A DNA stretch of 64,000 nucleotides from an uncultured Opitutaceae bacterium (GTDB taxonomy: Bacteria > Verrucomicrobiota > Verrucomicrobiia > Opitutales > Opitutaceae). This document shows, one piece after another, positions 48,686 through 58,168 of this stretch. Each line of letters begins with the position of its first letter. The stretch's first letter is position 1. The stretch is from the NCBI GenBank assembly GCA_903890485.1, contig CAITBM010000006.1, positions 75,901 to 139,900 on the forward strand. Direction: 5' to 3'. A model generated the notes under the pieces. It did no database searches. It worked only from the letters and a program-made list of their open reading frames with translations, and had not been told where the DNA came from. A program made the translations under genes and the position numbers.

Positions 48686-49813
48686 TCAGCGGCAGACCGA
48701 GCGCAGGAAGCGGCCGATGGAGTACGTGGCGAGCTGGCCGGAGGGACTGCTCAGGTTGAACTCGAGCGCGTGCGTGGCCCAGGGCAAGGACACCAAGATG
48801 TTCGGGACGCCCAGCTCCGTAAGGCGGGCCGCAAGGCGCTCGCTCTGGCGGTACCAGACCAGGGTGTCGATCTTTCCATGGATCAGCAGCGTCGGTGGCG
48901 ACCGGGGGCCGGCAAGCAGGTAGCCGCTGGCGCTGTCGTAGGCGCTGCCCGCCTGGTCAGGCGGCCCCCCCAGGAACTGGCGCAGGAGCTGGAGGGAGTT
49001 GAGCACGTCGTCGGGCCGGCCCCATTTCCAGGCGAAACGCATGTCAGCCGGAGCATAGAGGGCCACGACTCCGCGGACCGACGGGTCCCCCAGGGAGTAG
49101 GCGCACGCCTCGGCGATCTGCCCACCTGCGGAGCGACCGAGCAGAACCAGACGGGCCGGGTCCAGCCCCAGGGACGCCGCATGCCCCTTCAGGTATGCAA
49201 TCGCCGCGGCGACATCCTCGCGCTGCGCGGGCCAAACGGAGGCCGGCGCCAGCCGGTAGGAGAGGTCAGCGACCGCGTAACCCTCATGGGCCAGCCAGGC
49301 GTTGAGCTGGGGGACCTGCCCGCGTTCGCCGTCGTCCCACCCGCCGCCGTGGATCACGACCACGCAGGGGGCAACCCGCCCGCCGACTGCCCCGTAGAAA
49401 TCGAGCTTCAGGGTTCCCGCGTAACTGACCGTGGTTCGCGGAACCGGTGCGGGCCACACCTTGAAGAGTCCGGGAACCGAGAACGCGGGCCCGGGATACT
49501 CCCCGGCCCCAAACTGGCGGTCCATGCGGCCGGGCAGGCTCCGTGCGATCAGCCAGGCCTGCGCGCAGGGCTGCAGGAGGAGCCCGACGGCGACGGCACT
49601 GATCCCCACGGTCGCCAGGGCCCATTTGCTCCGGCCGCTCCGGGTCCGCCAGGCGACCCAGGCCGCAGCAAGCGGCATGGCCGCGACCAGGTAGCCGAAC
49701 TGGTCGGCGATGACGGAGCCTTTCCAGCCCATCCAGTCGGGCGACGGGAACACGGTAAGGAGCCCGAGGACAGCCGAGCCGACCGCCAGGATGAGGGCCA
49801 AGGGGCGCGTCAT
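48686..49813 (-). CDS. Membrane-anchored alpha/beta-hydrolase (BD-FAE/HSL-like)
   Basis: A 375-residue protein with three hydrophobic helices in the first 95 residues and a C-terminal serine hydrolase domain. Oxyanion motif is VIHGGGWDDGERGQV, the nucleophile Ser is in LLGRSAGGQIAEA, and Asp (HGKIDTLV) and His (PWATHALEF) complete the triad. The Arg before the Ser is unusual. The catalytic side may face either way. Its ATG overlaps the bshA stop by 4 bp, making it the last gene of the long bacillithiol-transport chain. Substrate unknown. Confidence 0.82.
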   Translation of the reverse strand: MTRPLALILAVGSAVLGLLTVFPSPDWMGWKGSVIADQFGYLVAAMPLAAAWVAWRTRSGRSKWALATVGISAVAVGLLLQPCAQAWLIARSLPGRMDRQFGAGEYPGPAFSVPGLFKVWPAPVPRTTVSYAGTLKLDFYGAVGGRVAPCVVVIHGGGWDDGERGQVPQLNAWLAHEGYAVADLSYRLAPASVWPAQREDVAAAIAYLKGHAASLGLDPARLVLLGRSAGGQIAEACAYSLGDPSVRGVVALYAPADMRFAWKWGRPDDVLNSLQLLRQFLGGPPDQAGSAYDSASGYLLAGPRSPPTLLIHGKIDTLVWYRQSERLAARLTELGVPNILVSLPWATHALEFNLSSPSGQLATYSIGRFLRSVCR

Positions 49814-50961
49814 CTCATCCCGGCACCGGCGCAGACGCGGCGGTAAAGCTCCACGTAGCGCGGGACGATCGCCTCAGCGGAAAAATGGCTGCGCGCCCTC
49901 GCGCGCGCCCGCTCCCCCATCGCCCGGCGAAGCGCCGGGTCCGCGATCAGCTTCTCGACCGCGCGCGCGAGGCCGTCGGTGTCCGCGTGCGGCACAAGGA
50001 GTCCCGAGACGCCCGATTCCACGACCTCCGGGATTCCCCCGACCTCCGTTGCCACGCTGGGGCACCCGAAGCACATGGCCTCGAGGATGCTCAGGCAGAA
50101 GCTCTCCACATCCGAGGTGAAGAGTCCGATGTCGGCCGCCTGGAGGTAGTCCTCGATCTCGCTGATCTGCTCGCGGACGATCACGCGGCCCGAGAGGCCC
50201 AGCCTCTCGACGTCCCCCATGAAGGGCGTGAAGTCGCCCCCGGCAAGGATCACGAGCTTGAAGGATTCACGCGGGCGAATCCGCGCCGCGCTCTCCAGGA
50301 GGACGTCGATCCGCTTGAGGGGCCGGAGGTTCGACGCGTGGAGCACCATCGCCTCGCGCTCCCCGATCCCAAGCTCCGCCCGCACTGCCTCCCTTGGCCT
50401 CTTGGCCGGCCTCGGCTCGAAGAAATTGTGGATCACCTCGATCGGGCGCCGCACCGAGAGGTGGGCCTGGGTCTCCCGCTTGAGGAACTCCGAGACCGTG
50501 GTCACGGCGTCGGAGCGCTCGAGCGCGTGCGTGATGGCGGGGCCGTAGCCGGCGTCGCGCCCGAGGAGCGTCGTGTCGGTGCCATGGAGCGTGGTCACCA
50601 CCCGCGGCGCCGAACCTTCCGGGAGCATCGAGCGGGCGAGGACGGCGGCCGTGGCGTGGGGAACGGCATAGTGGACATGGAGCACGTCCAGTCCGACATC
50701 GCGGCTCACCTCGGCCATCTTGACCGACAGCGGCAGCGTGTAGTCCGGGTACTTGAACAGGCCGTAGTCGTTGATCACGACTGGATGGAAGAAGATCCCC
50801 GGGGCCCCCCAGGGCAGGCGGAAGGGGCGCTCGTAGCTGATGAAATGGGCCTCGTGGCCCCGGCGAGCCAGCTCCTCCCCGAGGGCCGATGCCAGGATCC
50901 CGCTTCCGCCGACGGAGGGATAGCACGTGATGCCGATCTTGAGGGGGCGGAGGGATTCCAT
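49810..50961 (-). CDS. bshA: N-acetyl-alpha-D-glucosaminyl L-malate synthase BshA
   Basis: GT4-type glycosyltransferase that joins GlcNAc from UDP-GlcNAc to L-malate, step one of bacillithiol synthesis. The 383 residues begin with the BshA hallmark KIGITCYPSVGGSGILASALGEELARRGHEAHFIS, then FKYPDYTLPLSVKMAEVSR, HVHYAVPHATAAVLAR and THALERSDAVTTVSEFL. The C-terminal nucleotide-binding EX7E-type segment is ESFCLSILEAMCFGCPSVATEVGGIPE. The match to the family start is near-exact. It follows bshB with 1 bp between and overlaps the downstream hydrolase. Confidence 0.96.
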   Translation of the reverse strand: MESLRPLKIGITCYPSVGGSGILASALGEELARRGHEAHFISYERPFRLPWGAPGIFFHPVVINDYGLFKYPDYTLPLSVKMAEVSRDVGLDVLHVHYAVPHATAAVLARSMLPEGSAPRVVTTLHGTDTTLLGRDAGYGPAITHALERSDAVTTVSEFLKRETQAHLSVRRPIEVIHNFFEPRPAKRPREAVRAELGIGEREAMVLHASNLRPLKRIDVLLESAARIRPRESFKLVILAGGDFTPFMGDVERLGLSGRVIVREQISEIEDYLQAADIGLFTSDVESFCLSILEAMCFGCPSVATEVGGIPEVVESGVSGLLVPHADTDGLARAVEKLIADPALRRAMGERARARARSHFSAEAIVPRYVELYRRVCAGAGMR

Positions 50962-50962
50962 G

Positions 50963-51700
50963 TCAGTACCTGCGGGCCGAGCTGCCGAGAGGGGAAAGCG
51001 ACCCGAACACCAGGGGATCGTTCGGAAAAAGCGCCTGGGCGTAGTCGACACCGGCCCTCAGGCCCAGGACGCGTGCTCGGGAGAGCTGCAGGTCCACGTA
51101 GTTGCGCGTGGCGAGCTGCGAGGCGTGGGCCGCCATCGCGGCTTGCCAGGCGGCGATCACCCGGGGATCGGAGATGTCGACCACGACCGGCAGGGTTCCC
51201 CGCTCCTCGGCCTCCGGGGTCACCGCATAGTAAAGGAGGGGGCCGATCGCGTGGGCAGGCAGGGCCTTAAGCGAGGCGATTCCCCCATAGCGCGCCAGGC
51301 GGGCAGCATCGCGGACAATCCGCCCGAGCCTTGGATGGTCCGGGTGCTGGTTGCCTTCAAGGGTGGGCGCCAGCACGTAGGCCGGGCGAAGCCTCCTGAT
51401 AATGGCCGCGAGCTTTCTCGCATGGCGGGGCTTCTCCTCGAGGGCCGCATCGCCGTCCAGGGTCACAAACTCAATCGTCGCCCCGAGGTGCCTCGCCGCG
51501 AGCCGGGCTTCCGCCATCCTCCCGGCCGGGGACCCACGGGACGCGGACTCTCCCCTTGAGCACACCACCAGGTGTGCGCGGCGGCCACCCTGCGTCTCTT
51601 GGGCGATTATCCCGCCGCATCCGAACTCGATGTCGTCGGGGTGCGCGCCGAAGGCGAGAACGGGGCCGCCCTCAAGAGAGTGTTTCGCAGTAGGCTTCAT
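50963..51700 (-). CDS. bshB: Bacillithiol pathway PIG-L deacetylase BshB
   Basis: Zinc deacetylase that removes the acetyl group from GlcNAc-malate. The 245-residue protein has the metal motif LAFGAHPDDIEFGCGG (Asp-Asp pair), the linking AEARLAARHLGAT and the third-ligand motif GNQHPDHPRLGRI, as in the BshB1/LmbE family. A TTG at 51712 is a possible alternative start. The gene overlaps the short BshC-like gene by 29 bp and is followed by bshA, which fixes its role despite the wide substrate range of PIG-L enzymes. Confidence 0.93.
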   Translation of the reverse strand: MKPTAKHSLEGGPVLAFGAHPDDIEFGCGGIIAQETQGGRRAHLVVCSRGESASRGSPAGRMAEARLAARHLGATIEFVTLDGDAALEEKPRHARKLAAIIRRLRPAYVLAPTLEGNQHPDHPRLGRIVRDAARLARYGGIASLKALPAHAIGPLLYYAVTPEAEERGTLPVVVDISDPRVIAAWQAAMAAHASQLATRNYVDLQLSRARVLGLRAGVDYAQALFPNDPLVFGSLSPLGSSARRY

Positions 51701-52445
51701 CGGAGCGGTCAATGGGGTCGCGGCCCACGAACGTGATGTCGGGGGCGTCCTCTTTCTTCAGGTAGGCCTGCTCGCCCGCCCCCGCAATGTAGTGGGTGCA
51801 GTGGACGACCGACTGCATCCATCGCAGTCGGGAGTCCCGCGTGGGACTGACCTGGGATTTGTCGAACGGCATGGGCGGGAGCGTGACGAATGAATCCCCA
51901 CCCTCGTGCAGTTGCAATGCGCCACCTGCGAATCGCGCCCGCACCGTCTCGCCCTGGTGGCTCACGTCGACAAAGAACTCGTCCACGGCGCACGCCGCAC
52001 GTCGGAACTCCGGGTCCCCCGAGCGGACGACCCGGATCCCCTCCAGGAGTCCCATTCTGCGGTACATCTCCAGGCAGAAGTCCGCCACCCGATCGGCCTC
52101 GACCTGCTTGAAGGCGTCGACCCAGGCGGGGTCCACGTAGGCGGGAAGCTGGCGCGCCATGTTGTCCCTCCAGCCCGCGGGCACCCGTTTGGCGTAGAGC
52201 GGCGAGAATTTGCGCTGGAGCTTGTTCTCAAAGGTGAAGTTGAGCGTCTGGGCTTCCCCGGTCTTGCGGTGCCTCAGGGTGGTCTGCGTCTCCCGCGGAT
52301 CATGGTCGCTGTCATGGAGGAAGAACACGATCTCGCCCCCGAGTTCCGCCCTGAGCCGCCGGGCCGTGAACACCTTCGCGGCGAGGAAGCGCCGCGGGAA
52401 AAAACCGCAGGGCTGCTGGCCGAAGCAAATCAGGGGGGCGGTCAT
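51672..52445 (-). CDS. Short BshC-like protein, candidate cysteine-adding step of bacillithiol
   Basis: A 257-residue soluble protein. Its N-terminus has GQQP (residues 9-12), Lys24 at exactly the 15-residue distance found between GQQ and Lys in classical BshC, then DSDHD (residues 45-49), corresponding to the EDHD-type motif of BshC. Classical BshC is about 540 residues, so this is half length; the middle (WRDNMARQLPAYVDPAWVDAFKQVEADR) and C-terminus (EQAYLKKEDAPDITFVGRDPIDRSDEAYCE) are not recognised. Context: it lies directly before bshB and bshA. The match is from memory of BshC sequences. Confidence 0.6.
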   Translation of the reverse strand: MTAPLICFGQQPCGFFPRRFLAAKVFTARRLRAELGGEIVFFLHDSDHDPRETQTTLRHRKTGEAQTLNFTFENKLQRKFSPLYAKRVPAGWRDNMARQLPAYVDPAWVDAFKQVEADRVADFCLEMYRRMGLLEGIRVVRSGDPEFRRAACAVDEFFVDVSHQGETVRARFAGGALQLHEGGDSFVTLPPMPFDKSQVSPTRDSRLRWMQSVVHCTHYIAGAGEQAYLKKEDAPDITFVGRDPIDRSDEAYCETLS

Positions 52446-54151
52446 GGGGCGGCGGGTGTCGGGCGGCCACCCAGGCCGAGGATCCCCTGGAGGATCACGC
52501 TAAACACCATGCAGGCCACGCAGCCGATCACGTTGTACCAGAGGTACGAGATGCTCTGCGTCGCATAGAGGGCGAAGACGAGGGCCTGCGCGGCGAGCGC
52601 GGACCAGAACACCGCCGTCCCGCCGACCCGCTTCAGGAAGAAGGCCACCAGGAAGAGCCCGAGGACGACACCGTAGAAGATGGACCCGAGGATGTTCACA
52701 GCCTGGATCAGGTTCTCGGCGAGGTTCGCGAAAAGGGCGAACCCGATCGCGACCAGGCCCCAGAACGCCGTGAAGACCTTGGAAGCGACAACGTAATGGC
52801 CATCGGAGGCCTCGCGGCGGACCAGGTGGCGGTACACGTCCACCGTGGTGGTGGAGCCGAGCGCGTTCAATTCCCCTGCCTTTGACGAGAGAGCGGCAGC
52901 GAAGAACGCCGTCACCAGGAGGCCGATGAGGCCGTGGGGAAGGTGGTCGAGGATGAAGGTGATAAAGACATAGTCGGCGTCGTTGGCCTTGGTGCCCGGC
53001 GAGGCCAGATCGAGCGCGGCCCGGGTCTTCGCCCGCACTTCTTCGATCCGCTCGTGCGCCAGCGAGGCGCCGTCCCGGGCCTGGGCCTCGGCCTGGCGGT
53101 TCCCCGCGTGGCGTGCGGCAACCCAGGCCTCAACCTGCGCCCGTTCGGCGGCGTGGGCCGCGGTGAACTCTCCGTCCAGTGCCTTTAGCCCGCCGTCCGT
53201 CGCTTGCTCCGCCTGGGCCTTCCAGACGGTCCGGTTAAAATACACGGGCGGGCGCTCAAACTGGTAGAACACAAAGATCAGGACACCGAGCAGCAGCATG
53301 AAGAACTGCATCGGGATCTTGAATACGGCGTTGAACATGAGCCCGAGGCGGCTCTCCCGGATCGAGGCGCCCGAGAGGTAGCGCTGCACCTGGGACTGGT
53401 CCGTCCCGAAGTACGAGAGGGCGAGGAACATCCCGCCGAGGACGCCGGTCCAGACCGTGTAACGCCGGTCCATGTTAAGGGAAAAGTCCACGGCCTCCAT
53501 CTTGTGGAACCCTCCGGCAATCGTGAGCGCATCGCTGAAGGTGAGCCCCGGCGGCAGGCGAACGAGGAGCACGAAGAAGGCCGCCACCATGCCGGCAAAG
53601 ATCACGCCGATCTGGTACTTCTGCGTGAGGCTCACCGCGTCGCATCCCCCGGCAACCGTGTAGGCCACGACGAGGAGCCCGCTGCAGACGATCGTCGCGT
53701 CCAGGCGCCAGCCCATGACGGTCGACAGGACGATGGCCGGGGCATAGATCGTGATCCCGGCCCCGAGGCCGCGCTGCAAGAGGAAGAGACCGGCGCCCAG
53801 GAGCCGCGTCTTCGAATCAAAGCGGTGGCCCAGGTACTCGTAGGCGGTGTAGACCTTCAGCCTGCGGTAGATCGGCAGGAAGACGACCGAGATGACAATC
53901 AGGGCGATCGGGGCCCCGAAGTAGTTCTGGACGAAGCCCAGGCCGCTCTCGTAGCCCTGGCCCGGAGTCGACAGGAAGGTGATCGCGCTGGCCTGAGTCG
54001 CCATGACGGAAAGCCCGATCGTCAACCATGTGGCCTGGCCCGAGCCCTTCAGGTAGCCGCTAAGGTCCCGCCGGCCGCGCGTGTTCCAGACTGCGTAGGC
54101 CGCGATGGCGAGCATCGAGCCGAACAGGATGACATAGTCCAGGGTGTTCAC
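52442..54151 (-). CDS. Sodium:solute symporter family transporter
   Basis: A 569-residue SSS-family protein with about 13-14 helices: GTG start at 54151 followed by helix 1 (YVILFGSMLAIAAYAVWNT), the family motif FLSTPGQGYESGLGFVQNYFG, and SYFGTDQSQVQRYLSGASIRESRLGLMFNAVFKIP, a strong SSS signature. A long cytoplasmic or periplasmic loop of about 100 residues (Ala/Glu/Arg-rich coiled coil, residues about 340-410) is unusual. It couples sodium entry to a solute, possibly malate or an amino sugar for the pathway next door; that is inference. The start overlaps the small-protein stop, and its stop overlaps the BshC-like start. Confidence 0.92.
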   Translation of the reverse strand: MNTLDYVILFGSMLAIAAYAVWNTRGRRDLSGYLKGSGQATWLTIGLSVMATQASAITFLSTPGQGYESGLGFVQNYFGAPIALIVISVVFLPIYRRLKVYTAYEYLGHRFDSKTRLLGAGLFLLQRGLGAGITIYAPAIVLSTVMGWRLDATIVCSGLLVVAYTVAGGCDAVSLTQKYQIGVIFAGMVAAFFVLLVRLPPGLTFSDALTIAGGFHKMEAVDFSLNMDRRYTVWTGVLGGMFLALSYFGTDQSQVQRYLSGASIRESRLGLMFNAVFKIPMQFFMLLLGVLIFVFYQFERPPVYFNRTVWKAQAEQATDGGLKALDGEFTAAHAAERAQVEAWVAARHAGNRQAEAQARDGASLAHERIEEVRAKTRAALDLASPGTKANDADYVFITFILDHLPHGLIGLLVTAFFAAALSSKAGELNALGSTTTVDVYRHLVRREASDGHYVVASKVFTAFWGLVAIGFALFANLAENLIQAVNILGSIFYGVVLGLFLVAFFLKRVGGTAVFWSALAAQALVFALYATQSISYLWYNVIGCVACMVFSVILQGILGLGGRPTPAAP

Positions 54152-54282
54152 CGGAACAGGAGGGACAGGAGGGTGAGGAGCGAGACCCACGCGGCAAAGA
54201 TCGCGATCACCAGGCCGTAGACGCCGCCCCACTTCCGGGGCCAGGGCAGTCCCGTGGATTGGTCGTCCTCAGGATCGTTCAT
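54148..54282 (-). CDS. 44-residue single-helix membrane protein, partner of the symporter
   Basis: MNDPEDDQSTG then WPRKWGGVYGLVIAIFAAWV and a Leu-rich end: an acidic N-terminus and one hydrophobic helix. It is coupled to the SSS gene through GTGA (54148-54151) and to the PIG-L gene through ATGA (54279-54282). Small subunits next to SSS genes are common, so a stabilising partner is likely. The longer open frame upstream is the other reading of the PIG-L gene. Confidence 0.75.
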   Translation of the reverse strand: MNDPEDDQSTGLPWPRKWGGVYGLVIAIFAAWVSLLTLLSLLFR

Positions 54283-56825
54283 CTGCCGAGGGATACTAGG
54301 TTCGCAAACAGCCGGTAGGCGCCGGGCACGCCCGCGGGCAGCTGCCTGAAGAACGAGAGGCCGGTGTACACGAAGTAGCCCTTGCCGAGGTGCGCCACCA
54401 GGAGCCCGCCCTTCAGGGGCGCCTCGCCCGGGTCGCTGCACGAGAGGAGGGCCTCCAGGTGGCTGGAGTCAAAGTCGCTCGCAAAGTCGAGGCCCCTTTC
54501 CTGGACCCATCCGTCAAAGTCAGCCGGAACGATGCGGTTCGGGGAGGTGAACGCCGGATGATCGGGGACCAGGAGGGAGACCGCCGCCTTCTCATCGGTC
54601 ACCCGGTAGTGGGGAAGGTCCCGGGAAAGCTTCAGCGGATAGGGGGCGAGCTGATCGGTCTGGAGCCCGCCGGGCGTGTTGTACTGCTCGACCACCGTGC
54701 CGCCGGCCTCGACGTAGGCGAAAAGGTCCTTCAGGTGGGGGGCGAGCTCGGTCCTCGTGTTGAAGGCGCGCACGCCGATCACGACGGCGTCGATCCCCTG
54801 GAGCCCCTTTGCTGTCAGATCCGCATCGGTCAGCTGCACCACGGAGTAGCCCATTTGGGCAAGGCTTGCCGCAGTGCTGTCGCCCGCTCCGGGAAGATAG
54901 CCCACCCGCTGTCCGCGGATCGCCAGGTCGAGGCAAACCGCCTTCGCGTGCGCCAAGGGCTGCAGGAGCTGGGGCGGGATGTGGCCGTAGGTGATGTCGA
55001 TCCGGCCCGTCCCGTAGCTTGAGCCGCCGACCTCCGCGACGGCGCGGAGGTCGCAGGTCTCGGGGGCGCCGGGCGCACCCACTTGGAAGGCCAGCTCCGC
55101 CTTGTCCCCCACCCGAGCCAGGTGGAACGCCTGCCGGCGCGGGGAAAGGGTCCAGCCCTTGGGGGCCACCAGGCTGAGATATCCCGAGGTGTCGGCCCGG
55201 GAGGCCGTCACCTCCAGCTTCACGGTCCGGCTCGTTCCCGGGGAGACTAGGACGACGGCTGATCCGAAGCCCAGGGAAACGGGCGGGATCACCCGGGGAA
55301 GCACGCGGGCCTCCTCCTTGCCCGGCTCGCGGGCAAGGTAGACCGCGGCGTGGGCGACAACGAGCGTCTGGCCCCCCACCTGAAAGACGTCCTCGACCGG
55401 CACCGCAGCAGGGCCTTCCGGCCGGCCGATGAGCGTCGGGTCGTCGACCCGGAAGAGGCCGGGGGATCCCTGCTCGCGGAGCCAGTAGGGCTGCGTCAGC
55501 TCGGTCCCTGGCGGCAGGGTCCGCGTCGCATCGACGCTCGAGGCGACGTTGGGCACGAGGCTTCCGGCGCCCCGGGCCTTGCGCCCCAGGGTCGGGTAGC
55601 GGACCGCAATCCACTTCACGGGCACATCGGAACGGACAACGGCCACGTGGTGAAGCGCCAGGTCCTCGCCGGGGACGACCTCCTTTGCCGAGATCGTGGT
55701 CTCAACCGAGAGCCCCAGGCAGGCGGCGAGGATGTGGTCGAGCTTGGCCCGCTTCTCGTCGAGAAGCGGATCGGGCGGAAGGGCCGCGAGCTTCGCCTTG
55801 ATCTGGAGGAGCACCGGCACGCTTGCCGAGGGGTCGGTCGGGCTGAACCCCTGCTCGGCCTTGTCGGCCAGGACGGCGATCTCCGCTCCTCCGGGGAACC
55901 GGCCCCAGGACGTGTCGACCCCCTCCATCAAGTCCTTGGTCGCGGGCTCCCCCGCCAGGACCTTGAACGCCTCCGTGTGCGGTCCCGTCCCGGCCGACGC
56001 CACCGAAAAATTCGCAAACCCCTGTGTCCGGTGCATCGAGCGGCTCCTCGCCGCCAGGGCCGCGAACGACTGGCCCGTCACCCCGTCGGTCCCGTCAATA
56101 CCCATGCGGAGCATAGCCGCGGAGGCGTCGTCGGGCGCGGGCCGGCCCGGGCCCCACCACCCGTTCCAGAGGATGCGCCGGGGCTGCCACGGCCTCAAGT
56201 CCCGCAGCTGTTCGGGAAAGGCCTTCGGGTCCCCTGCCAGGCCGAACGCCTCGAGCGCCAGGACAGCCGACGCCGTGTGATGGCCGTGGGTCCCGCTCGG
56301 CTCGGTCGGGAACCGCGTGATCACGACGTCGGGCCTGAAGGTGCGGATCACCCGGACCACGTCGGCAAGCACGTCCTGGCGGCCCCACTTCGCGAGGGTC
56401 TGGCCGAAGTCCTTGGAATAGCCGAAGTCCCTCGCCCGGCTGAAGAACTGGCGCCCCCCGTCGACCTGCCTGGCGGCAAGAAGCTCCTGGGTGCGGATCA
56501 CCCCGAGGAGATCCCCAAACTCCGGCCCGAGGAGGTTCTGGCCCCCGTCGCCGCGCGTGAGCGAAAGGTACCCGGTCCGGTAGCCCCGCCCCCGGGCCAG
56601 GTAGGTGATCAGCATCGTGTTCTCGTCGTCGGGATGGGCGGCCACGTAGAGCACCGTGCCGGTGACGCGGAATTCTCGGAGCTCCTGGGCGATGGCCGCG
56701 GGGGCCACCGGTTCCGCACCGGCAAGCAGCGGGGCGAGAAGGAGCGCGAGGGCCGCCGCGCCGAGGAATACCCTCGGCGTGGATCGCGGACCTCCGTCGG
56801 CGATGGGGCAGGCTCTCCTGGTCAC
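54279..56825 (-). CDS. Large exported PIG-L deacetylase with C-terminal amidotransferase-like domain
   Basis: An 848-residue protein. A basic start and hydrophobic helix (VFLGAAALALLLAPLLAGA) serve as signal. The PIG-L deacetylase domain has the zinc motif AHPDDE (His64-Glu68) and HGHHTASA; a middle beta-rich part (residues about 430-620) resembles a NEW3-like or fibronectin-type region; and the C-terminal part (VVIGVRAFNTRTELAPHLKDLFAYVEAGGTVVEQYN) is like class I glutamine amidotransferase or ThuA folds without an obvious Cys triad. It probably deacetylates a sugar outside the membrane. The GTG at 56825 overlaps the DUF2911 stop. Confidence 0.85.
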   Translation of the reverse strand: MTRRACPIADGGPRSTPRVFLGAAALALLLAPLLAGAEPVAPAAIAQELREFRVTGTVLYVAAHPDDENTMLITYLARGRGYRTGYLSLTRGDGGQNLLGPEFGDLLGVIRTQELLAARQVDGGRQFFSRARDFGYSKDFGQTLAKWGRQDVLADVVRVIRTFRPDVVITRFPTEPSGTHGHHTASAVLALEAFGLAGDPKAFPEQLRDLRPWQPRRILWNGWWGPGRPAPDDASAAMLRMGIDGTDGVTGQSFAALAARSRSMHRTQGFANFSVASAGTGPHTEAFKVLAGEPATKDLMEGVDTSWGRFPGGAEIAVLADKAEQGFSPTDPSASVPVLLQIKAKLAALPPDPLLDEKRAKLDHILAACLGLSVETTISAKEVVPGEDLALHHVAVVRSDVPVKWIAVRYPTLGRKARGAGSLVPNVASSVDATRTLPPGTELTQPYWLREQGSPGLFRVDDPTLIGRPEGPAAVPVEDVFQVGGQTLVVAHAAVYLAREPGKEEARVLPRVIPPVSLGFGSAVVLVSPGTSRTVKLEVTASRADTSGYLSLVAPKGWTLSPRRQAFHLARVGDKAELAFQVGAPGAPETCDLRAVAEVGGSSYGTGRIDITYGHIPPQLLQPLAHAKAVCLDLAIRGQRVGYLPGAGDSTAASLAQMGYSVVQLTDADLTAKGLQGIDAVVIGVRAFNTRTELAPHLKDLFAYVEAGGTVVEQYNTPGGLQTDQLAPYPLKLSRDLPHYRVTDEKAAVSLLVPDHPAFTSPNRIVPADFDGWVQERGLDFASDFDSSHLEALLSCSDPGEAPLKGGLLVAHLGKGYFVYTGLSFFRQLPAGVPGAYRLFANLVSLGR

Positions 56826-58168
56826 TTCAGGCTGGCGATGAGGGCCTCGTTCAGGCGCAGGTACTCGTCCCTCGCCGGACCCGTGTCCTTGGAGGCGAGC
56901 TCGATCGAGTGGCGCGCCGTGGCCTCGGCGCCCGCCTTGTCGCCCCTCTTGGCCTGGATCAGGGCCTTCCGGTAGATCATGTAGTAGGCGTTCGGCTGCT
57001 CCGCGATTGCGGCGTCCATCCATCCCTCGGCCTTGGCGAGGTCCAGGTTGTTATCCAGGTAGAACATCGCCGAGGGGAAGTACGGCTTCTTGCCGCTGCC
57101 CGCCATGGCGGCCTCGATCTTGGGGACCAGGGCGCCGACCACGTCGAAGCCGAGCTTCACCGGGACCCGCGTGTGTTCCCAGACCAGGTCGAGCGTGGCC
57201 GAGTCTGGGCGGAAATCATTGAACTCGATCGTAAAGGTCTCGACCGGCTCGGCGAGGGCGACGGGCGTCGCGGTCACCCGCAGGACATCGTTCTTCGGGT
57301 CGTAGGCGTAGGCGCCCCACTGGTCACCGGCCTTCTGGAAGATGATGGTCCACTGGTCCTTGTTGGGGATCGTGAACAGCTCGTAGGTGCCGGCATCAAG
57401 GTGCGATCCTTCGACGGAGACCGGCGTGCTGAAGGAGATGCGGGTCGCGCTGTTGGCGCCGGTGCGCCAGACCTGCCCGTAGGGGTTGTTGCCGCCCAGC
57501 ATGACGCGGCCCTTCGCGCTCGGCCGGGAGTAGACGACCTCGATGTCGGTCGCGCCGATCCGCTGCTTGAGGGTCGTCGCGGGGCTCGCCTGGGGGAAGG
57601 AGATCTGAGGTTCGGGGACCTTGAGCGCCACCGAGAACTGGGTCTTCTCCCACTTGATCTTCAGGCTCCCCGTTCCCGAGGCATCCGTCTCGATGGAGAT
57701 CGTGAGCTGGTCGACCGGCGTATCGAGCGCCTCCTTCTTCAGGTTGACCCGCGCCAGGTCGTGGGTCTCGTCGACCGGCACTCCCCATTTTCCGACCGAG
57801 GTGCTGATGGCCAGCTTGGAGGTCCCCGACTGCGACGGGATGGTGTAGAGCGTGTAGACGCCCGCCGGCACGAGCGCCTCGCCGATCATGACCGGCTTCT
57901 GGACAATGAGGGTCGTGGCCTCGTCAGCACCCAGGCGGTCGGCCTGGTCCCATTTGACAAGGCCTCCCCAAATGACGCGCGGGGCGCCGGTCTTCGGGTC
58001 CTTGGTGTAGGGCCTGCCGTAGGTCACGGTGATCCGGTTTCCGGTGTGCCAGTCGCCAAACACGGCGCTGACGGTTTCGTGCGGGCTCTTCCGGCTCTGC
58101 TGGGCCACGAGCGGCAGGGTCGCAAGGGCTCCGAAAATAAGGGCAAGGGTGGTTCTGAGGTGTCTCAT
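56822..58168 (-). CDS. Exported protein with two tandem DUF2911 domains
   Basis: A 448-residue protein with a signal peptide (residues 1 to about 22, ending LVAQQ). It has two copies of the DUF2911 unit: the first with DWHTGNRITVTYGRPYTK... GGLVKWDQADRLGADEATTL and the second with DIEVVYSRPSAKGRVMLGGNNPYGQVWRTGANSATR (the RTGAN motif is typical, and is DRLGAD in copy 1). The C-terminal 110 residues are helical (TPR-like). DUF2911 has no known function. First gene of the long chain that ends with bshA and the hydrolase. Confidence 0.9.
   Translation of the reverse strand: MRHLRTTLALIFGALATLPLVAQQSRKSPHETVSAVFGDWHTGNRITVTYGRPYTKDPKTGAPRVIWGGLVKWDQADRLGADEATTLIVQKPVMIGEALVPAGVYTLYTIPSQSGTSKLAISTSVGKWGVPVDETHDLARVNLKKEALDTPVDQLTISIETDASGTGSLKIKWEKTQFSVALKVPEPQISFPQASPATTLKQRIGATDIEVVYSRPSAKGRVMLGGNNPYGQVWRTGANSATRISFSTPVSVEGSHLDAGTYELFTIPNKDQWTIIFQKAGDQWGAYAYDPKNDVLRVTATPVALAEPVETFTIEFNDFRPDSATLDLVWEHTRVPVKLGFDVVGALVPKIEAAMAGSGKKPYFPSAMFYLDNNLDLAKAEGWMDAAIAEQPNAYYMIYRKALIQAKRGDKAGAEATARHSIELASKDTGPARDEYLRLNEALIASLK

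Follow-up and report, generated by a model that had tools for sequence, protein, structure and literature searches.

The locus considered here is best understood against the pathway of bacillithiol (BSH), a protective sulfur compound, in which BshA makes GlcNAc-malate and BshB deacetylates GlcNAc-malate to GlcN-malate. BshC (YllA; PF10079 and PF24850, TIGR03998; structure 4wbd), annotated as the cysteine-adding enzyme, has its place beside these two proteins. A 2015 review noted that no in vitro activity had ever been demonstrated for BshC and that it acts by an unknown mechanism (PMC4360819). An analogous step is carried out by MshC (TIGR03447), the cysteine ligase of mycothiol synthesis, which follows a glycosyltransferase and a deacetylase and is a relative of cysteinyl-tRNA synthetase (CysRS). 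A 2018 survey listed the Verrucomicrobia among the lineages with 'no documented or predicted' low-molecular-weight thiol (PMC6282198). A 2025 survey set its BLAST E limit at 1e-20 and retained homologues of the BSH enzymes only if they were similar in length, at coverage >80% and identity >25% (PMC12719100); such a filter, we infer, would drop the protein described below. In the open-licence literature that we searched, which includes no preprints and few subscription papers, there was no report of a compact or a verrucomicrobial BshC and no paper combining bacillithiol with a term beginning Opitut; one paper that mentions both bacillithiol and a term beginning Verrucomicrob concerns mercury genes (PMC8261052).

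The window, by which we mean the whole stretch of 64,000 nucleotides analysed from an uncultured Opitutaceae bacterium, carries on its minus strand, in the order of transcription, genes for a large PIG-L protein, an SSS symporter, a compact BshC-like protein, BshB and BshA. The compact bshC-like open reading frame (51672-52445, minus strand) runs from ATG to TGA, encodes 257 amino acids and has a coding-type base composition (GC at codon positions 1, 2 and 3 of 0.66, 0.46 and 0.85). Downstream of it lie a bshB-like PIG-L deacetylase gene (50963-51700, minus strand; ATG at 51700, alternative TTG start at 51712) and bshA, for glucosaminyl-malate synthase (49810-50961, minus strand), whose ATG at 50961 is placed one base beyond the bshB stop. 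The bshA product scores 395 bits against TIGR03999, exceeding the cut-off of 273.7, and the bshB product scores 129 bits (E 1.8e-37) against TIGR04001, which is under that model's cut-off of 182.5. Upstream is the sodium:solute symporter gene of the SSS/SSF type (52442-54115, minus strand; ATG at 54115, with the frame open up to a GTG at 54232), preceded by a large PIG-L (LmbE-like) open reading frame (54279-57023, minus strand) whose true start is uncertain. The stop of the symporter gene overlaps the compact gene by 4 bases, and the 3' end of the compact gene overlaps the 5' end of bshB, counted from its ATG, by 29 bases; the three genes are thus probably co-translated, as an inference from sequence. 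The best NCBIfam match of the large PIG-L product is mycothiol-conjugate amidase Mca, at only 36 bits (cut-off 277). Ahead of its PIG-L domain is a hydrophobic stretch, judged by eye, which suggests that the protein is exported. It is conceivable that this protein and the symporter take part in extracytoplasmic handling of thiol conjugates.

The initial annotation had proposed that a half-length BshC-like protein of 257 residues lies directly ahead of bshB and bshA and follows the BshC pattern at its N-terminus, and each element of this description held. The protein is about half the 520-560 or so residues of a classical BshC. GQQP is found at residues 9-12 (codons at 52410-52421, minus strand) as the counterpart of the BshC GQQ, Lys24 (52374-52376, minus strand) corresponds to Lys104 of BshC (numbered, here and below, as in the Bacillus velezensis protein L118), and DSDHD occupies residues 45-49 within HDSDHD at 44-49 (52299-52316, minus strand). 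The claimed lysine spacing is that of L118, in which G89 and K104 are 15 residues apart. DSDHD does stand where BshC was said to have EDHD, since EDHD is found in most of the six classical BshC compared, L118 having D133-H134-D135 at this place. A second shared motif, which the initial annotation did not contain, lies near the C-terminus and reads R206...Q211...G222-A-G-E225..Y228...R242, with R334...Q338...G350-P-G-E353..Y356...R377 as its parallel in BshC. Part of it falls in residues 210-228 (MQSVVHCTHYIAGAGEQAY; codons at 51762-51818, minus strand), the counterpart of a BshC stretch ending in GPGExxY, and the TIGR03998 match of one family member, L024, falls on this same stretch (E 0.01).

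In the six classical BshC, GQQ...K...DHD..E and R...GxGE..Y...R are invariant except for the second G of GxGE. The same residues, in the same order and with the same spacing from GQQ to K, are identical in the 116 rows of our alignment of the compact family, in which G224 is kept in 114. These rows represent 106 distinct proteins from GQQ onward, some rows differing only in their start. The invariance of residues 9-11, 24 and 47-49 in 116/116 rows means that the N-terminal motif match exceeds chance. There are also differences: the compact proteins have GQQP-C-G where BshC has GQQAG and HDSDHD where the six BshC mostly have EDHD, and C124, C216 and H218, invariant in the compact family, have no invariant counterpart in the six classical proteins.

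Beyond these motifs, the sequence evidence for kinship with BshC is weak when taken alone. The window protein reaches TIGR03998 at E 0.12 and 11.3 bits, where the cut-off is 265.8, and has no match to PF10079. Among 28 members of the family, PF10079 matches four and TIGR03998 five at E <= 1, with best values of 8.3e-6 and 1.9e-4 respectively, and the top PF10079 score of 25.8 bits stays under the curated 27; two diverged members that were tested separately (L148 and L149) gave no BshC match. A family-profile search of PDB sequences returned nothing significant (best E 0.39), and BshC was not returned. Profile-profile comparison with hhalign, using the 116 rows against the six classical BshC, gave a score of 33.9, and the probability was low (17-25%). 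None of 200 column permutations reached this score and reversal gave 16.0, but under a stricter control in which 10-residue blocks were kept, 4 of 200 reached the real score, with a maximum of 39.4. The permissive hhalign alignment runs in the same order through residues 81-391 of BshC and pairs, in addition to GQQ, K24 with K104, DHD 47-49 with 133-135, E52 with E138, R206 with R334, G222 with G350, E225 with E353 and Y228 with Y356; Q211 and Q338 are one residue out of register by count, and R242 and R377 were paired by eye.

It is the structural match that carries the case for kinship. An AlphaFold2 model of the 257-residue protein has a mean pLDDT of 95.0 and a pTM of 0.91. With Foldseek, the Bacillus subtilis BshC structure 4wbd (E 5.6e-10) is the only match in the PDB at E <= 0.001, and VIA aligns 239/257 residues to 4wbd with a Z of 20.2 and an rmsd of 2.6. 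The second-ranked structure in VIA is the core of a class I lysyl-tRNA synthetase (LysRS, 1irx), with a Z of 14.6, 206 residues aligned and an rmsd of 2.9; this likeness hints at a possible common origin of BshC and the class I LysRS core. The fold predicted by the model is that of the BshC Rossmann core, about residues 81-391. Compared with BshC, the compact protein is without the first ~80 residues, has a shortened middle part and has no C-terminal coiled-coil domain. By length, by the missing coiled coil and by the curated model cut-offs, every one of which it falls under among those tested, it fails strict membership of the BshC family. The initial annotation held that its proposal would be refuted if there were no structural match to the BshC Rossmann core, or if a full-length bshC were found elsewhere in the genome. 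The structural match was found and the claim is not refuted on that ground, and a PF10079 search of the genome, which is 97% complete, found no full-length bshC.

The compact gene is conserved among the relatives of its host. A match is present in 28 of the 57 genomes searched (its own and 56 relatives), and full-length matches, at 55-85% identity, occur in 26/56 relatives besides its own genome. All full-length matches are within the window's own family, where they are present in 27/37 genomes, its own included. A chance open reading frame is rejected by this conservation. The one remaining match is a 37-residue gene start of 84% identity at a contig end in G052, a half-complete genome of a different family (L028:1501-1611); it could reflect transfer, or the contig could be a stray one. 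Scanning genome contigs gave 319 stretches encoding relatives, of which the best 80 were kept for locus counts; these are the most similar and are partly redundant, and their titles mostly give Opitutaceae, Opitutae/Opitutia, Opitutus or Verrucomicrobia. The operon is also carried by Opitutaceae bacterium EW11 (L099), whose record does not bear a MAG title. Each of the 80 contains an open frame of 252-268 amino acids, and a truncated pseudogene is rejected on this basis; in 11 of the 80 there is no ATG in the 15 codons before FGQQ, so lengths are approximate. The 116 aligned rows span the same 252-268 amino acids, and 72 of the 257 positions are at least 97% conserved among them. No relative of the compact protein was found in plasmids by tblastn at E 1e-5 or in viral contigs with two peptide patterns, and a search of plasmids for the SSS symporter returned only distant transporters.

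The neighbours of the gene are also kept. Counting among the 80 loci only those with enough flanking sequence to be testable, bshB follows no more than about 1.3 kb away on the same strand in 76/77 and bshA lies within 3 kb in 66/69; upstream, the SSS symporter is found within about 1.5 kb in 63/68 and the large PIG-L gene at up to 5 kb in 54/58. Three loci (L044, L049 and L105) have the compact bshC and bshB but no bshA, with 10 kb downstream covered. Two metagenome-assembled genomes (MAGs) named after lineages outside the phylum, Obscuribacterales (L094) and Melainabacteria (L110), contain the operon. In a midpoint-rooted tree whose bootstrap had not settled, the two group together with support (100/97) and are surrounded by sequences from Verrucomicrobiota; bshB was not found in the L094 locus. 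This placement would fit transfer of the whole operon, which remains no more than a possibility, and misnamed MAG bins are not excluded: a 16S search of the non-Verrucomicrobial MAGs yielded one in only 3/10 genomes and missed it even in a one-contig genome. A MAG titled Phycisphaerales (L104) likewise has the compact gene together with the genes that precede it, falls within the Verrucomicrobiota sequences, and allows the same two readings, transfer or a misnamed bin.

A pattern of replacement was seen in 387 Verrucomicrobiota genomes, the same set being searched for BshA, the compact protein, full-length BshC and YpdA. BshA is above its cut-off in 28 genomes; sub-cut-off BshA matches occur in 387/387 and are presumably other glycosyltransferases. 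The compact protein is present in 25 genomes and full-length BshC is above cut-off in three, all of one family, f46; a fourth PF10079 match, below cut-off and in G334, fell on the compact protein. These 25 and these three do not overlap and together make up precisely the 28 bshA genomes, so that in this sample of the phylum the compact protein replaces BshC in bshA-bearing genomes outside f46 (25/25). In genera g48, g49 and g55, genomes without bshA are also without the compact protein, and vice versa. A Fisher value of 2e-36 overstates this association, as related genomes are not independent. None of bshA, the compact protein and full-length BshC is above threshold in the remaining 359 genomes; the compact BshC is therefore not a phylum-wide solution. 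YpdA (TIGR04018) is above cut-off in 3/387 genomes, exactly those three with full-length BshC, and in 0/25 compact genomes. The thiol may thus differ, or be recycled differently, in the compact genomes; both possibilities, that they recycle bacillithiol by other means and that they make something else, remain.

As to other thiols in the window's own genome, no GshB was found there, and glutathione is for that reason an unlikely thiol for this organism, a judgement that rests on the absence of GshB only and does not cover GshA. MshC (TIGR03447) gave only two sub-cut-off matches in the same genome, the best on a 511-residue open frame that we take to be CysRS, and MshC is not among the matches listed for the compact protein.

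The three genomes of f46 provide an internal comparison. There the operon has the order methyltransferase, bshC, bshB and bshA, and bshC takes the position that the compact gene has elsewhere, immediately upstream of bshB and bshA; this operon differs in that its BshC is full length with a coiled coil and in that YpdA is found elsewhere in the genome. In the 19-kb loci of this family (L113-L115), tblastn revealed neither an SSS symporter nor a large PIG-L gene. In Bacteroidota, genes of both types may occur in the vicinity of a full-length bshC. The gene that precedes bshC in f46 encodes a SAM methyltransferase of 247 amino acids (L114:7814-8557, L113:9634-10377, L115:8036-8779), which could, by position only, be NmbA, the N-methyl-bacillithiol synthase.

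The initial annotation had proposed that a compact BshC carries out the last step here. It is likely that the gene does encode such a protein and that it performs the last, amino-acid-adding step on GlcN-malate, most likely with cysteine; operon position and pathway co-occurrence support this, the activity, the substrate and the thiol being inferred. In the proposed scheme, BshA would form GlcNAc-malate and BshB would then yield GlcN-malate, to whose free amine the compact Rossmann-fold protein would join an amino acid, with bacillithiol or a close variant as the predicted product. Fold and context give good support to a BshC-like function, for which there are no activity, ligand or metabolite data; catalysis, the use of cysteine, the identity of the product and the ability of the core to function without the coiled coil are each inferred.

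Among the alternatives, the one that survives best is that the protein is a BshC relative that adds another amino acid or uses another acceptor, so that the product is not bacillithiol. The idea of a different acceptor or thiol was already raised in the initial annotation, and it is still alive given that no YpdA is above cut-off in the compact genomes, as opposed to 3/3 with full-length BshC. The operon's own partners, the large PIG-L and symporter genes, also speak for it, as do the full-length loci, which are without the symporter and in which the one weak PIG-L match by tblastn is bshB in L115; moreover, the invariant C124, C216 and H218 specific to the compact family could mean another substrate pocket. 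Against it, the motifs found in both the compact and the classical proteins (GQQ, K, DHD, E, R, GxGE, Y and R) suggest the same chemistry, and the strong BshA match makes GlcNAc-malate the expected intermediate. We regard this alternative as possible. A bolder form, which can be entertained only as one joint claim, is that of a separate branch of the BshC superfamily making a thiol or an aminoacyl-glucosaminyl-malate distinct from bacillithiol, with an active site that includes the invariant Cys and His, with an exported PIG-L amidase and the SSS symporter in place of YpdA, and with an operon that has been transferred as a whole, Melainabacteria-type genomes being among its recipients. For the active site, C216-x-H218, perhaps with C124, might combine with HDSDHD to bind a metal that serves the cysteine thiol; CysRS and MshC have a metal in this role.

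A second alternative, which we consider unlikely, is that the protein is an independent offshoot of a class I aminoacyl-tRNA-synthetase-type core, similar to class I LysRS, and that its likeness to BshC is convergent. The recruitment of MshC from CysRS offers a parallel, and the rank of 1irx as the second structural match and the weak sequence likeness to BshC speak in its favour. On the other hand, BshC leads by over 5 Z units and aligns with a larger part of the protein, BshC-type motifs are found at both ends in the same order, and the sequence matches listed for the family include BshC models, in several members, but not any synthetase family.

Equally doubtful is the proposal that the protein is a decayed or regulatory remnant of BshC and that an unknown enzyme performs the last step. 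In its favour, the compact protein has no known activity and lacks the coiled coil, which the 2015 review calls required for dimerisation (PMC4360819). Against it, the conservation of 72 positions includes the BshC-type motifs, lengths are tightly kept, a second BshC is absent from the window's own genome and the MshC matches there stay below cut-off, and the protein is present in every genome outside f46 that has bshA above cut-off (25/25). Finally, a split BshC with its missing half encoded elsewhere would fit the fact that the protein ends about where the coiled-coil domain would start, but it is very unlikely, with PF24850 above cut-off in 0/25 compact genomes (nine have sub-threshold matches, E 0.02 to 1) versus 3/3 full-length genomes.

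We thus favour the reading of a compact BshC, which is likely to be a new variant rather than a new kind of enzyme, its function being inferred. With it, a concrete thiol pathway can be predicted for the Opitutaceae and for a few further lineages, and it marks the portion of BshC that evolution keeps. As the 2015 review knew of no in vitro activity of BshC (PMC4360819), a single-domain form of 257 residues is attractive for such work. If the compact protein works, at least one branch of the family would be capable of catalysis without the coiled coil reported for BshC.
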